DNA of 64,000 nucleotides from Halogeometricum sp. S3BR5-2. GTDB taxonomy: Archaea; Halobacteriota; Halobacteria; Halobacteriales; Haloferacaceae. The first letter of the stretch is position 1. Every line of letters starts with the position of its first letter. Position numbers and translations under genes: made by a program. The stretch lies in NCBI RefSeq assembly GCF_031624635.1, contig NZ_JAMQOQ010000001.1, positions 930,001 to 994,000 of the forward strand. Direction: 5' to 3'. This document shows, one piece after another, positions 30,700 to 37,041 of this stretch. The notes beneath the pieces are model-generated. The model worked only from the letters and a program-made list of their open reading frames with translations. It was not told the DNA's origin and did not search any database.

Positions 30700-31947
30700 T
30701 CAGAACCCCCCCGCGAACGCGTCCATGTCGGGCGCGATGTCGATGTCGCGCTTCGACGTCTCCTCGATGACGGATTCGAGGTCCTTGTCTCCTCGGCCGG
30801 AGACGTTCACCAGCACCGTCTCGCCGAGTTCGTCGTGGTTCTCCTCTAAGTAGGCGAACGCGTGCGCCGTCTCCAGCGCCGGGATGACCCCCTCCAACTG
30901 CGAGAGGCGGTGGAAGGCGGTGAGGGCGGCGTCGTCGTCGACGTTCACGGCCGTGACGCGCCCCTCGTCGACGAGGTGTGCGAGTTCCGGACCGACGCCG
31001 GCGTAGTCCAATCCGGAGGAGACGCTGTGGCTCTCCATTATCTGACCGTCCCTGTCTTGGAGGAGTTTCGTCCGCGCGCCGTGGAGGACGCCCTCGGACC
31101 CCGTCGACAGCGACGCGGAGTTGGGAGCGACGCCCGCCTCCTCGTCCACGTCGAGGGAGGACCCGCCGGCCTCGACGGCGTAGAGACCCACGCCGTCGTC
31201 GTCGACGAACTCCGCGAACGCGCCCATCGTGTTCGACCCGCCGCCGGCGCAGGCGAGCACCGAATCGGGCAGGCCGTCCGTCTTCTCGCGCATCTGCGCG
31301 CGCGCCTCCTCGGAGATAACTGATTGAAAGTCGCGGACCATCGCCGGGAACGGGTGCGGGCCGACGACCGACCCGATGACGTAGTGGGTGTCCTCGACGT
31401 TCGTCGCCCAGTCGCGCATCGTCTCGGAGATGGCTTCTTTGAGGGTGCCGCGGCCGACGGTGACTGGGTTCACCTCGGAACCGTTCAGCCGCATCCGGAA
31501 GACGTTGGGTCGCTGGCGGTTGATGTCGCGTTCGCCCATGTACACCTCGCAGGGCATGTCGAGGTGGGCGGCCGCCATCGCCGTCGCGGTGCCGTGCTGG
31601 CCCGCGCCCGTCTCGGCGACGATGCGCTCTTTGCCCATGTACTTCGCGAGGAGCACCTGCCCGAGGGCGTTGTTGAGTTTGTGCGCGCCGCCGTGGAGGA
31701 GGTCCTCGCGCTTGAGGTACACCTCGCGGCCGTAGCGCTCGGAGAGTCGCTCCGCGTGCTGGGTGGGCGTCGGCCGCCCGCCGAAGTCGCGGAGGCGGCG
31801 CCGGAACTCGTCCATGAAGCCGTCCTCGTTGCCCAACACGTACCGCTCGTACGCGTCGTTCAGTTCCTCGATGGCCGGCATGAGGGCCTCGGGAACGTAC
31901 TGTCCGCCGTAGTCGCCGAACTTGCCGTCGAAGGTGGTCTCGCTCAT
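30700..31947 (-). CDS. trpB: Tryptophan synthase beta chain
   Basis: PLP enzyme joining indole and serine to tryptophan; 415 residues. Landmarks: [20 protein letters not shown] at the N-terminus, [20 protein letters not shown] with the PLP Lys (about residue 99), [17 protein letters not shown] with the catalytic Glu, [12 protein letters not shown] binding the PLP phosphate (about 235), and GRGDKD near the end. It is the TrpB1 type that works with TrpA. The start overlaps the trpC stop by four bases (ATGA, 31944-31947). Confidence 0.97.
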
Positions 31948-32759
31948 TCTGTCGTCTCCGTATCCGTATCCGCGTCCGTCTTCGCATCCTCGGCAGCGTC
32001 TGTCGCTCCCGCGAACCGCTCCGTGTTCGCCCGCACGTCGCCGTCCATGATGGCCGTGCCGATGAGGAGGGCGTCCGCGCCCGCCGCGCGCATCCGCCGG
32101 GCGTCCCCGACCGTCTTCACGCCGCTCTCGGCGAGGAGCGTCACGTCGTCCGGAGCGTGGGGCGCGACCGACTCGAACGTTTCGAGGTCGACCTCCAACT
32201 TCCCCAGGTCGCGGTTGTTCACGCCGATAATCTCCGCACCGGCTTCCAAAGCCGATTCGAGTTCCGCCCGGTCGTGGACCTCCACGAGCGGTTGGAACCC
32301 GCGCTCTCGCGCCGCCGTCACGAGGTCCGGGAGGTCTTCACCCACGAACCGCGCGATGAGAAGCACCAGATCGGCCTCCACGGCGTCTAACTGCGACTCC
32401 TTCACGACGAAGTCCTTGCGCAGGACGGGCACGTCCACCGCCTCGCGGATTCGTCGAAGGTTCTCCGTCGACCCGCCGAAGTGGTCGGGTTCGGTCAGTA
32501 CGGACAGCGCCGTCGCGCCGCCGGCGACCATCTCCTCGGCGAGTTCGACCGGGTCGTCGGTCCGTTCGCCGTCGGTCGTCGGGCTGGTGGGTTTGACCTC
32601 CGCGACGACCGGCACCCGACCCGCCGCCTCCGTCTCGGCGACGGCGTCGGGGAACGACCGCGCGGAGACGGAGACCCGTTCGTCGCCGCCGGGTCGCTCC
32701 CGCGCGGCGTTGAGGATGGAGCGGACCTCGGGGGCGAGTGAATCCTCACTAGCGTTCAT
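31944..32759 (-). CDS. trpC: Indole-3-glycerol phosphate synthase
   Basis: Closes the indole ring from carboxyphenylamino-deoxyribulose phosphate; 271 residues, TIM barrel. Landmarks: [13 protein letters not shown] (catalytic Lys region), [52 protein letters not shown] and [18 protein letters not shown] with the phosphate-binding end [11 protein letters not shown]. The last about 20 residues are an Asp/Thr/Glu repeat tail coded by short tandem repeats. First gene of the trpCBA unit; trpD, trpE, trpG and trpF are not in the window. The start region carries a palindromic operator candidate. Confidence 0.95.
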
Positions 32760-32760
32760 C

Positions 32761-32793
32761 AGTGTACACTAACGTACTCATCTGCACATAAGA
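32761..32793 (-). promoter_or_regulatory. trpCBA promoter with palindromic operator candidate
   Basis: Reading the minus strand, TCTTATGTGC (32784-32793) is a TATA-like element 25-34 bases before the trpC ATG. Between it and the ATG, two bases from the start codon, lies the perfect 10-base palindrome AGTGTACACT (32761-32770). Its core TGTACA equals the TRP-box consensus known for the TrpY repressor of Methanothermobacter. A site between TATA and transcription start would block polymerase, consistent with tryptophan repression; that a TrpY-like protein acts here is inference. Confidence 0.6.
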
Positions 32794-32843
32794 CTTGCGC
32801 GTCGTCGTCAAGGTTCAAGGGCGAACCGGGCGAAGCCGTTCGC

Positions 32844-33296
32844 ATGAACGCCGGTGTGTTCGCCCGCCACTCCGAAGTGCTCGGGCGAGCGGTGCAGATA
32901 GGCGTCGCGAGCGGAAGCGTCATCAGCGTCTCCTTTCCCGCCGAGGTGCCGCCGGACGCCGACGCGGAGCACTCGCTGCTCGACAGGGTGTTCGACTACC
33001 TGGAGGGAGAACCCGACCACTTCGACGACGCGCCCGTGGCGCTGACCGTGCCGACGGAGCACCGGCGCGTCCTCGACGCCGTCGGGAACGTCCCGTACGG
33101 GGAGACGGTCGAACTCCGACGCGTCGTCCGCATGGCGGGACTGGACCCCGACGACGAGGAGGACGCGTCGACGGCGCGAACCGCGCTACGAGAGAATCCG
33201 GTGCCGCTGTTCGTCCCGGACCACCGCGTCGAGGACGCCGCGGGCGCGACGCCCGACGAGGTGGCCCGGCGCCTGCGGGCGCTCGAATCCGGGTAG
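32844..33296 (+). CDS. Alkyltransferase-like (MGMT-fold) protein lacking the active Cys
   Basis: Protein of 150 residues whose C-terminal half has the DNA-binding fold of O6-alkylguanine-DNA alkyltransferases: VLDAVGNVPYGETVELRRVVRMAG (HTH), TARTALRENPVPLFVP and DHRVEDAAGATPDEVARRL. The methyl-accepting motif PCHRV is PDHRV here (Asp126, codon at 33219-33221), so suicidal repair by Cys cannot occur. In alkyltransferase-like proteins the Cys is replaced by Trp or Ala and the protein flags lesions for excision repair; Asp is unusual. ATG at 32844, divergent from trpC. Confidence 0.8.
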   Translation: MNAGVFARHSEVLGRAVQIGVASGSVISVSFPAEVPPDADAEHSLLDRVFDYLEGEPDHFDDAPVALTVPTEHRRVLDAVGNVPYGETVELRRVVRMAGLDPDDEEDASTARTALRENPVPLFVPDHRVEDAAGATPDEVARRLRALESG

Positions 33297-33309: not shown

Positions 33310-34233
33310 CTACGTCAGCCGCGCCGCCCAGTCGAGTTCGAGCCCCTCGTGGACGACGAACTCCAGGGCGTTCACGAGGTAGTGCGCCAGCACGACGGCG
33401 AACAGGCTACCCGTGAGGACGTACGCCGCCGCGAGGACGAACCCGAGCGTCCCGGTGACGAGGACGCCGAGGCGCCCCTGCGCGTTGTGCCCGAGGGCGA
33501 ACGCGACCGAGGAGACGAGAGCGAGGAGCCACGGCGAGACGCCGAAGCCGGCGGCGAAGACGCCCACGAGGGCGCCGCGGAAGAGCAGTTCCTCGAACCC
33601 GGCGATGACCGGGAGGACGGCGAAGAGGAGGACGGCCCACCCGGCGGGCGTCTCGGGCGCCAGCGCCTCCCGGAGTTCCTCGGCGTTGCCGAGTCCGCGC
33701 GCGGCGCCCAGCGCGGCCCCGACTTGGTTGACGACGTACAGGACGACGCCGAGAGCGGTGCCGACGGCGAGGGACGCGGCGGACAGCGAGTCCGCCCCCG
33801 CGCCGAACGCCGACGGGGGAATCCGCGCGTACCACGCGCCCGCGAGGAGGAAGACGGCGAACAACCCCTGCGAGAACGCGACGTTGGCGAGCAGTTCGGC
33901 GGTCGATAGCTCCGGAATACCTCCGGCTTCGACCCCGTTCTCGTCTTCGTCCTCGTGCGGCGGGTCCAACCGGTAGCGGACGCCGGATTTCGGGAGGACG
34001 ACTTCCCGGTGGTCCGGGGCGCCCCCGGACGGCTTCCGCGCTCGGTCCGACGACCCCTCGGGGTCGTCCGGCGCCGCTCGGACGTCGCCGTCCCTGCTCC
34101 CGTTCTCGTCCTCGACCGCTCGGTGCGGCCGCTCGTCGTCGGGTGAAATAGCGCCTCGGGAGGCGAAAGAGAGGACCAGGAGGCCCGCCGTGACGACGCT
34201 CGCGAACGCGGCGAACGTCGCCCAGTCGGGCAT
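33310..34233 (-). CDS. CPBP-family intramembrane metalloprotease
   Basis: Protein of 307 residues. An N-terminal hydrophobic segment is followed by a long disordered, charged loop (about 30-110) and then about six membrane segments bearing the CPBP motifs: FEELLFRG (about 215), FALGHNAQG (about 245) and HYLVNALEFV (about 285). Catalysis by Glu/His-bound metal is expected; the substrate is unknown. The long soluble insert distinguishes it from the paralogue at 4943-5863. It lies 6 bases downstream of lonB on the same strand, so the two membrane proteases are probably co-transcribed. Confidence 0.85.
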   Translation of the reverse strand: MPDWATFAAFASVVTAGLLVLSFASRGAISPDDERPHRAVEDENGSRDGDVRAAPDDPEGSSDRARKPSGGAPDHREVVLPKSGVRYRLDPPHEDEDENGVEAGGIPELSTAELLANVAFSQGLFAVFLLAGAWYARIPPSAFGAGADSLSAASLAVGTALGVVLYVVNQVGAALGAARGLGNAEELREALAPETPAGWAVLLFAVLPVIAGFEELLFRGALVGVFAAGFGVSPWLLALVSSVAFALGHNAQGRLGVLVTGTLGFVLAAAYVLTGSLFAVVLAHYLVNALEFVVHEGLELDWAARLT

Positions 34234-34239
34234 CCGGCG

Positions 34240-36333
34240 TTACTGCGGGCTCGGGCTCGACGGCCCGGACACCTGCTCCGGGTTGAACGCGGAGCCGGTG
34301 ATGCTCTTGAGGCGGTCGACGAGCGAGTCCTTCTCGGGTTCGCCCTCGAGCGCCACGTCGAGCACTTCGCTGATGTGGCTGACGGGGATGATCTCGACCA
34401 TCTCCTCGTACTCCTCTTCGATCATCACGTCCTGCATGTTCGCCTGCGGGATGATGACCTTCGAGCAGCCCGATTTCGCGGCGGCCTCTATCTTGTGCGT
34501 GACGCCGCCGACGGGGAGCACGTCCCCGCGGACGGACAGGCTGCCGGTCATGGCGAGCGACTGGTCGACGCCGACGTTCTCCAGCGCGGAGATGACCGCC
34601 GTGGCGACCGTCACGGACGCGGAGTCGCCCTCCACGCCCTCGTAGGACTGCACGAACTGGATGTGGATGTCCTTCTGGGAGATGTCCTCGTCGGAGAACT
34701 TCTTGATGATGGCCGATACGTTCTGGACGGCCTCCATCGCTATCTCCTGAAGTTTCCCGGTGGCGATGACCTCGCCCGGCCCCTGCGAGGGCGTGACCTC
34801 GGCCATCACGGGCATCATGATGCCGGAGTCCTCGCCCATGACGGCGAGACCGTTGACGCGGCCGACCTGGTAGCCGTCGGCCACCTGCAGTTCGTAGTCC
34901 TTGCGGCGCTCGATGTAGTCGTCCGCGAGCTGCTGTTCGATGGAGCGGCTGCGGCCCTTCGCCTGCAGCACGTGCGCGCGGGTGACCACGTCGGCGTCCT
35001 CCGCGCGGGCGATGTCGCCCGAGACGCGGACCAGACCGCCGAGGTTGCGCAGTTCGAGCGTGAGGTGGCCCTTCCGGCCCGCGCGGCGGCGGGCTTCGAG
35101 GATGACCTCCTCGATGGCCTCGGAGCTGTATTCGGGCAGGCGGCCGTCCTTCTTGACCTCCTGTGCGACGAAGCGCGCGTACTTGCGCCGCATCTCGGGG
35201 GTGTCCTCGATGGTGTCGTCCATGTACACCTCGTACCCGTACCCCTTGATGCGCGAGCGCAGGGCGGGGTGCATGTTCTCCATCGCGTCGAGGTTCCCGG
35301 CTGCGATCATGATGAAGTCCGTCGGGACGGGTTCCGTCTGGACCATCGCGCCCGAGGAGCGCTCGGACTGGCCCGTGATGGAGAACTCGCCCTCCTGGAT
35401 GGCCGTCATCAGGTGCTGCTGGGAGCGGATGTCGAGCGTGTTTATCTCGTCGATGAACAGCACGCCCTTGTTCGCCTTGTGGATGGCGCCGGGTTCCACG
35501 CGGTCGTGGCTCGGCGTCTCCATCCCGCCGGACTGGAACGGGTCGTGCCGGACGTCGCCGAGGAGCGCACCGGCGTGCGCGCCCGTGGCGTCCTGGAACG
35601 GCGCGGCCGCGCCGTCGGCGTTGTTGACGATGAGGTTCGGAATCATCGCGTCGCTTCCGCGGGAGCCGTAGCGGAAGGCGAGGTAGATGACGCCGGCCGC
35701 GAGGATTCCGAGCAGTATCTGCCCGGCGATGATGAGCGAGTAGCCGAGGACGATTGCGATGATGATCCACATGAGGAACGAGCGCATCTGGTTGCGCTTG
35801 CGCGCCTCTTCTTTGTGGGCCTCGACTATCTGTTCGCCTTTCCCCGCGGGGACCGTTCGGACCTTGGGGTTGTTGCCGTCGTCGGGGTTGTGGTAGACGA
35901 GAACGTCCTGCAGTTCCTCTTTCGGCAGCAGTTCGGACATCGCCTTGGCGAGCATCGATTTGCCCGTCCCGGGCGACCCGATCATCATGACGTGGCGGCG
36001 CTGTTTGGCGGCCTTCATGACCACGTCGCGGGCGTGCTCCTGACCGATAACTTGGTCGACGAGGCGGTCCGGCACCTCTATCTCGCTCGTCGAATCGATC
36101 CGGAGCCCACCGAGGAGGTCGTCTTCGTCCACGTCGTCGGCGACGTCGGCTTCGACTTCGACGTCGCTCCCGAGGTCGTCGATAGTCCGCTCGTCGACGT
36201 CGTCGGTCCCGTCGTCGGGGACCGACTCCGGGAAGACCTCCTCGTCCGCACCGGTGGAGGAGTCGGGGGACTCTTCGGGGATGTCGACCCCCTCTTCCGA
36301 GGAGTTTTCGTCGGTATCCATGTCGTTACTCAT
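34240..36333 (-). CDS. lonB: Membrane-anchored ATP-dependent Lon protease (LonB)
   Basis: Archaeal LonB, an AAA+ protease on the cytoplasmic face of the membrane; 697 residues. After an acidic N-terminal tail (about 1-75) come Walker A MIGSPGTGKSMLAKAM (about 117-132), two adjacent membrane segments inserted in the AAA domain (about 185-225, MWIIIAIVLGYSLIIAGQIL), Walker B GVLFIDEINTLD (about 290), a sensor and lid region, and the Lon protease domain. The last has the Ser-Lys dyad: Ser in EGDSASVTVA (about 565) and Lys in GGVTHKIEAA (about 607). In Haloferax LonB is essential and controls carotenoid enzyme levels. It diverges from nadM; AAGTATATC on the minus strand is a likely TATA element. 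Confidence 0.97.
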   Translation of the reverse strand: MSNDMDTDENSSEEGVDIPEESPDSSTGADEEVFPESVPDDGTDDVDERTIDDLGSDVEVEADVADDVDEDDLLGGLRIDSTSEIEVPDRLVDQVIGQEHARDVVMKAAKQRRHVMMIGSPGTGKSMLAKAMSELLPKEELQDVLVYHNPDDGNNPKVRTVPAGKGEQIVEAHKEEARKRNQMRSFLMWIIIAIVLGYSLIIAGQILLGILAAGVIYLAFRYGSRGSDAMIPNLIVNNADGAAAPFQDATGAHAGALLGDVRHDPFQSGGMETPSHDRVEPGAIHKANKGVLFIDEINTLDIRSQQHLMTAIQEGEFSITGQSERSSGAMVQTEPVPTDFIMIAAGNLDAMENMHPALRSRIKGYGYEVYMDDTIEDTPEMRRKYARFVAQEVKKDGRLPEYSSEAIEEVILEARRRAGRKGHLTLELRNLGGLVRVSGDIARAEDADVVTRAHVLQAKGRSRSIEQQLADDYIERRKDYELQVADGYQVGRVNGLAVMGEDSGIMMPVMAEVTPSQGPGEVIATGKLQEIAMEAVQNVSAIIKKFSDEDISQKDIHIQFVQSYEGVEGDSASVTVATAVISALENVGVDQSLAMTGSLSVRGDVLPVGGVTHKIEAAAKSGCSKVIIPQANMQDVMIEEEYEEMVEIIPVSHISEVLDVALEGEPEKDSLVDRLKSITGSAFNPEQVSGPSSPSPQ

Positions 36334-36501: not shown

Positions 36502-37041
36502 ATGCGGGGGTTCTACATCGGTCGCTTCCAGCCCTTTCACAACGGCCACCACCGGATGGTCGAAGAGATAGCCAAAGAGGTGGACGAACTCGTCCTCGGT
36601 ATCGGTTCCGCCGGCGATTCCCACTCGCCGCGAAACCCGTTCACGGCCGGCGAACGCGTCATGATGGTGACGAAGTCCGTCGCGGACTTCGACATCACCA
36701 CCTACGCCGTCCCCATCGAGGACCTGGACAGAAACTCCGTCTGGGTGAGCCACGTCCAGAGCATGTCGCCCGCCTTCGACGTGGCGTACTCGAACAACCC
36801 CCTCGTCATCCAACTGTTCTCCGAGGCCGGCGTGGAGGTCCACCAGTCGCCGATGTTCAACCGCGACGTGCTGGAGGGCACGGAACTCCGCGACCGGATG
36901 AGACACGACGAGAACTGGCGCGACCTCGTCCCCGACCCCGTCGAGCGAATCATCGACGAGGTGGGCGGCATCGAACGCCTCCAACGCGTCAGCGACACCG
37001 ACTCGAACGGCGGGCGCGAGGACTACCCCTCGCCGTCGTAG
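36502..37041 (+). CDS. nadM: Nicotinamide-nucleotide adenylyltransferase (archaeal NadM)
   Basis: Makes NAD from NMN and ATP; 179 residues. It has the archaeal nucleotidyltransferase fold with GRFQPFHNGHHRMV (the (H/T)xGH motif at about 8-18), LGIGSAGDSHSPRNPFTAGER, and the C-terminal phosphate-binding motif as EGTELRDRM (about 130) in place of the usual IS(G/S)TxxR form. ATG at 36502 right after the initiating Met-Arg-Gly. It ends 5 bases before the next membrane protein, suggesting co-transcription. Confidence 0.95.
   Translation: MRGFYIGRFQPFHNGHHRMVEEIAKEVDELVLGIGSAGDSHSPRNPFTAGERVMMVTKSVADFDITTYAVPIEDLDRNSVWVSHVQSMSPAFDVAYSNNPLVIQLFSEAGVEVHQSPMFNRDVLEGTELRDRMRHDENWRDLVPDPVERIIDEVGGIERLQRVSDTDSNGGREDYPSPS

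Follow-up and report, generated by a model that had tools for sequence, protein, structure and literature searches.

A 64,000-nucleotide stretch of the Halogeometricum sp. S3BR5-2 genome (hereafter the window) carries a gene for a small protein of the AGT/MGMT alkyltransferase family in which the alkyl-accepting Cys has been replaced by Asp. We consider it probable that this protein is a non-catalytic pseudo-alkyltransferase, which would no longer flip lesions or transfer alkyl groups and would act by binding something else. The reading draws on the sequence changes and the order in which they fall on a tree, on a predicted fold, on the presence of the gene in nearly all haloarchaea and on the purifying selection acting on it. 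What makes the case worth attention is that the product of so widespread a gene lacks the acceptor Cys as well as the canonical parts for flipping DNA.

The ORF at 32844-33296 of the forward strand was confirmed; its translation contains ...ALRENPVPLFVPDHRVEDA... and the full protein of 150 residues is NPVPLFVPDHRV. The preliminary description had reported PDHRV instead of the alkyltransferase motif PCHRV, and the acceptor Cys is indeed gone, with Asp126 (codon GAC, 33219-33221) in its place. The interval given for the motif, 33213-33227, lies one codon early, however, and would read VPDHR; the motif occupies 33216-33230. The family link is diverged yet real: the protein scores 32 bits against PF01035 (Pfam, cut-off 27) and 22.9 bits against TIGR00589 (ogt, NCBIfam), the latter below the cut-off of 46.4. 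The second PF01035 gene of the same genome is a canonical Ogt with PCHRV.

Table 1 Features of the window around the Asp-type gene (columns: feature, position in the window, strand, remark).
trpC, divergent neighbor	31944..32759	-	in 127/168 haloarchaeal loci
TGTACA-type block at the trpC promoter	32763..32792	+	travels with trpC
Putative Asp-type pseudo-alkyltransferase P0001, 150 aa, predicted two-domain AGT fold	32844..33296	+	ORF, PF01035, distribution, predicted fold
Leu codon 91, where AGTs have the base-flipping Tyr (human Y114)	33114..33116	+	Tyr/Phe in 5/168
Residues 101-117, comprising an acidic turn and the recognition helix	33144..33194	+	Ser109 in place of the arginine finger, Arg112 in place of a conserved Gly, Thr113, and Glu117 where Lys/Arg is usual
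PDHRV motif, aa 125-129	33216..33230	+	Asp126 in place of the alkyl-acceptor Cys
Shortened active-site loop and start of the C-terminal helix, aa 129-147	33228..33284	+	outgroup AGTs have 4 more residues here
Residues 145-148, with Arg145 (Leu in AGTs) and, a helix turn later, the conserved Glu148 (human E172)	33276..33287	+	
CAAX-protease-like neighbor (PF02517)	33310..34233	-	
lonB protease	34240..36333	-	
PF01467 (nucleotidyltransferase-type) gene	36502-37041		

The Asp-family gene is a core gene of the Halobacteriales: with the protein as query it was matched in 384 of 392 genomes, and in 345 of the 345 good ones. The residue at the acceptor position was read in 168 haloarchaeal species, a sample that is not random and combines the best-scoring loci of the genome search, loci picked for divergence and the best of a further search. 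Two loci were left out as a canonical (L001) and a bacterial (L035) Ogt and others as repeats (L002, L004 and 13 of L126-L155); where a genome had two family hits (G015), the better one alone was counted. Asp was found in 154 species, Ser in eight, Cys in two, Thr in two, Ala in one and Gly in one; Trp occurred in none of the 168 proteins. In contrast, Cys occupies this position in all 20 outgroup proteins, taken from other families of the same phylum, and the 30 canonical Ogt genes fetched from haloarchaea all have PCHRV. Asp is thus nearly fixed, and homologues mostly carrying Cys, which would have turned the substitution into a single mutation, were not what the survey returned. Since the Halogeometricum pallidum and H. 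limi proteins (91% and 77% identity to the query) both have PDHRV and most other species have Asp, a lone mutation or sequencing error is ruled out. A search of viral contigs with profile A1 found no relatives of the Asp family.

Alignment columns were compared among three sets: the 168 Asp-family proteins, the 20 outgroup proteins and the 30 canonical haloarchaeal Ogt proteins, the last being a matched control for salt adaptation in the comparison of HTH charge. The relevant passages of PMC10779285 outline what the arginine finger, the flipping Tyr and the Glu-His-Cys network do in AGTs. The base-flipping Tyr/Phe is present in 20/20 outgroup and 30/30 canonical proteins and in only 5/168 of the Asp family. 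The conserved Gly of the recognition helix is changed to Arg or Lys in 147/168, a change with no counterpart in the outgroup or the canonical Ogts, and the usual Lys/Arg preceding the Asn hinge is replaced by an acidic residue in 93/168 (outgroup 0/20, canonical 1/30). The mean net charge of the HTH is -5.2 in the Asp family, +3.3 in the outgroup and -1.4 in the canonical Ogts. The arginine finger is absent from 138 Asp-family proteins, the remaining 30 of 168 having Arg in this column, and it is missing from 0/20 outgroup proteins and from 30/30 canonical haloarchaeal Ogts, so that its loss alone proves nothing in haloarchaea. These canonical PCHRV proteins (L001, L212-L240) have Val or Ile at the finger in every case and keep both Cys and the flipping Tyr. 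The active-site loop is four residues shorter in 151/168; the spacing from HR to Glu is mostly 19 residues in the Asp family, 23 in the outgroup and 25 in the canonical Ogts.

The other side of the comparison is what has been kept. Asn118 is found in 167/168, His127 in 168/168 and Glu148 in 167/168, and seven columns are invariant across the 40 rows of alignment A1. Asp126 and Arg145 occur together in 147/168, and Ser, Thr, Ala and Gly are also seen with Arg145, for which reason a strict Asp126-Arg145 coupling was dropped. Judging from the alignment, Arg145 probably lies near Asp126 in the old pocket. From these columns we infer a loss of DNA binding and of catalysis; with these losses and the scaffold kept, the protein would be neither a methyltransferase nor a lesion flipper. 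DNA may still be bound in a new mode via Arg112, Arg128 and Arg96.

The protein was predicted by AF2 with eight aligned sequences to adopt a two-domain AGT fold (pLDDT 93.1, pTM 0.85; three of the five models at 67-76); an earlier model from three sequences (pLDDT 61) was set aside. The predicted N-terminal strands and helix align to AGT N-domains. Foldseek with VIA-align returned AGTs throughout, the first 31 rows having Z of 14.2-17.6 over 134-143 residues and the best rows Z of about 17 over 134-140 residues with an rmsd of 1.8-2.6 to AGT structures, whereas Schizosaccharomyces pombe Atl1 aligned with aa 68-150 only (Z 6.3). Because AGTs align over the full length and Atl1 over this part alone, the protein is a two-domain AGT and not an alkyltransferase-like protein (ATL). 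The preliminary description held that the alkyltransferase HTH is kept, which is true of its fold (AF2 pLDDT 93) and not of most of its DNA-contact residues. With Ogt/AGT/MGMT proteins (PF01035) the Asp family shares the full-length two-domain fold, the Asn hinge, the PxHRV frame, the His and Glu of the activating network, and ancestral members with Cys at the same locus; it differs from them in having no acceptor Cys and no flipping Tyr, in the change of Gly to Arg, in the acidic HTH and in the loop shortened by four residues. In the ATLs (S. pombe Atl1, E. coli ATL and T. thermophilus TTHA1564) the acceptor Cys is replaced too, mostly by Trp, against Asp here. As described in the part of PMC10779285 that deals with them, ATLs lack the N-terminal domain and keep the HTH, the arginine finger and the Tyr. 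Here the N-terminal domain is present, with Ser109 for the finger and Leu91 for the Tyr, and on the features compared membership of the ATLs is rejected.

These differences also bear on one of the two readings offered by the preliminary description, that of a lesion sensor, which by analogy with ATLs would bind O6-alkylguanine DNA in an altered way and hand it over to nucleotide excision repair. The kept fold, Asn hinge, His and Glu fit such a role, and so does the Ogt repertoire. According to our own class counts, made from the table of a PF01035 search of 117 haloarchaeal genomes, a canonical-scoring match (at least 77 bits) is present in 36, five have an f9/f11 Cys/Ser orthologue only, six have no match and 70 have a low-scoring match only, which is taken to be the Asp family. 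Canonical Ogt is therefore patchy in haloarchaea (36/117), and an Asp-family protein that is the sole PF01035 match may cover for the missing Ogt. We nevertheless regard a lesion sensor as unlikely, given the lost Tyr, the acidic recognition helix with Arg112 (HTH charge well below that of the canonical Ogts), the widespread change of Gly to Arg/Lys, the shorter loop, and the N-terminal domain, absent from the ATLs as treated in that part of PMC10779285. Of the two we prefer the other reading: the protein has probably moved from direct DNA repair to a different job.

The order of the losses can be followed on a tree of 83 rows, comprising all 14 non-Asp proteins, 57 Asp proteins and 12 of the 20 outgroup proteins, with the acceptor column masked. 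The families f9 and f11 (two Cys, three Ser) branch outside all other haloarchaea, with support of 100/96 for the rest and 97/85 for f9 plus f11, on a tree whose bootstrap is not fully settled, which has many open forks and in which some rows differ in composition. The minimum number of state changes is ten. Since the Cys/Ser families branch outside the rest, Cys is ancestral, and Asp was later fixed and then loosened; it was replaced again in a few lineages after the loss of Tyr and loop. The five f9/f11 proteins already have Arg112 and the acidic HTH and still keep Tyr and the full loop. Given these intermediate states, the DNA-contact changes came first, followed by the loss of Cys and then by that of Tyr and of four residues of the loop. 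The orthologue adjoins lonB, the PF01467 gene or both in each of the four f9 genomes read; these neighbors also lie near the window gene, so the f9 copies are orthologues by place too. No such neighbor was seen for the f11 copy. The basal lineages thus hold a rare stepwise record of an enzyme becoming a pseudo-enzyme.

The path from enzyme to pseudo-alkyltransferase may be pictured as follows. The ancestor would have been a two-domain, Cys-containing O6-alkylguanine transferase. Binding to the minor groove of DNA would have gone first, with the recognition helix turning acidic and its Gly changing to Arg; the acceptor Cys would have followed, and finally the flipping Tyr together with part of the active-site loop. 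The old active-site scaffold of Asn hinge, His, Arg and Glu is kept. The old pocket, lined by Asp126, capped by the short loop and probably with Arg145 nearby, could then hold a segment of a partner or a small ligand.

A man-made protein offers a parallel to the first of these steps. Among PDB sequences the family profile matches 6ga0 best, which is SsOGT-H5, a self-labelling tag engineered from Saccharolobus OGT. As reported in the pertinent parts of PMC7216122 and PMC4605297, five HTH mutations in SsOGT-H5 abolish DNA binding, while alkyl transfer from free substrates is retained. The wild type is SPRAVGMALSKNP and the tag is APAAVKTALSENP; by our own reading of the alignment, the five published mutations would be the letters that differ between the two. 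In the aligned HTH, the wild type has RAVGMALSKNP, H5 has AAVKTALSENP and the window protein has STARTALRENP. Four H5-like states were scored (no Arg finger, a basic residue at Gly, Thr, and an acid at Lys). All four are present in 56/168 Asp-family proteins, the window protein included, and three in 36/168, compared with at most one in the outgroup and at most two in the canonical haloarchaeal Ogts. The natural family thus resembles the tag in the lost arginine finger, in Gly turned basic, in Thr and in Lys turned Glu, and several changes reached naturally match those introduced on purpose to keep an AGT off DNA. Unlike the Asp family, H5 has both Cys and Tyr, and its alkyl transfer persists, which means that an AGT can lose DNA binding and retain its pocket.

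The gene lies back to back with trpC in 127/168 loci, within 200 bp in 111 of them, the flanks examined being 1-1.5 kb in most loci. Among 30 genomes picked because trpC was not adjacent or not seen, 29 contain trpC. The block between the two genes looks like a candidate trp operator, and its triple TGTACA pattern has a single exact match in the whole genome. In 20 non-adjacent trpC loci (L252-L271), with trpC starts set approximately from the alignment, the block is recognizable by eye at 16/16 non-basal loci, with an exact TGTACA in 13 of these, and is absent from the four basal f9/f11 trpC loci. It is missing upstream of the Asp gene in three of 17 upstream stretches (L006, L037 and L120), where trpC is absent or more than 1 kb away. 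Because the block follows the relocated trpC, it belongs to trpC and not to the Asp gene. It is curious that the branch following f9/f11 is where the block as well as the Asp-type protein first appears, but this is one branch. Whether loci separated from trpC are also those that lost Asp was looked at by eye, and the independent events are too few for a correlation to be claimed.

This neighborhood raises the possibility of a regulator of tryptophan synthesis that would recognize the TGTACA boxes of the trpC promoter and might hold tryptophan where guanine once fitted. The divergent arrangement and the overlap of the conserved block with the trpC promoter would suit it, as would the four basal loci, which have no block and a protein still of the old type. 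A precedent is given in the portion of PMC6737238 on methanogen TrpY, which is divergent to its trp operon and represses it. The likeness to TrpY of Methanothermobacter, an analogy of function only, consists in the divergent trp neighbor and the repeat boxes in the promoter region. A TrpY-type operator is tied to the promoter of its own regulator, whereas the boxes here travel with trpC alone; moreover, the HTH is acidic, and the same portion of PMC6737238 reports TrpY homologues in haloarchaea. We therefore hold such a regulator to be quite improbable.

A bolder variant of the ligand-binding pseudo-alkyltransferase would make the old O6-alkylguanine pocket a sensor of a small molecule, either a nucleobase or an aromatic amino acid, whose charged groups Asp126 and Arg145 might read; the protein would control trpCBA via the TGTACA boxes or another core process via a partner. 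It is a long shot; if true, a repair enzyme would have become a sensor early in haloarchaeal history, at the root of the group. Very little credit can be given to Asp126 as a catalytic residue of a new enzyme, whether it accepted alkyl groups on its carboxylate or served as the nucleophile of a hydrolase, with an Asp-His-Glu network as the basis: the invariant His127 and the near-invariant Glu148 and Asn118 alongside Asp would suit it, but in nine of the 163 proteins outside the basal families the residue is Ser, Thr, Ala or Gly and the rest of the protein is kept, which disfavors a nucleophile. That the gene is a decaying relic persisting by chance is scarcely believable, despite an in-frame TAG inside the matched stretch of one species' copy (G144, L184) and the occasional loss of Asp itself, in view of its presence in every good genome, the invariant columns and a dN/dS of about 0.15-0.25 in six close pairs (Nei-Gojobori, ratios from dN and dS); the gene is under purifying selection.

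Automatic annotation can be expected to call such a gene a DNA-repair methyltransferase. Literature searches for HVO_0785, which we take to be the locus tag of the H. volcanii orthologue, for alkyltransferase-like proteins in Haloferax and for methylated-DNA methyltransferase in halophilic archaea returned nothing. The letters PDHRV gave unspecific matches, none of them on the Asp family among the matches listed, as far as titles and the starts of abstracts tell, and the portion of the Haloferax open-issues review consulted does not mention methylated, alkyl or HVO_0785. Finally, a TTCAAG-like element lies at 32814-32819 of the window, about 30 bp before the ATG. It recurs in most of the upstream stretches examined, including loci without an adjacent trpC, and may serve as core promoter for a transcript without a leader.
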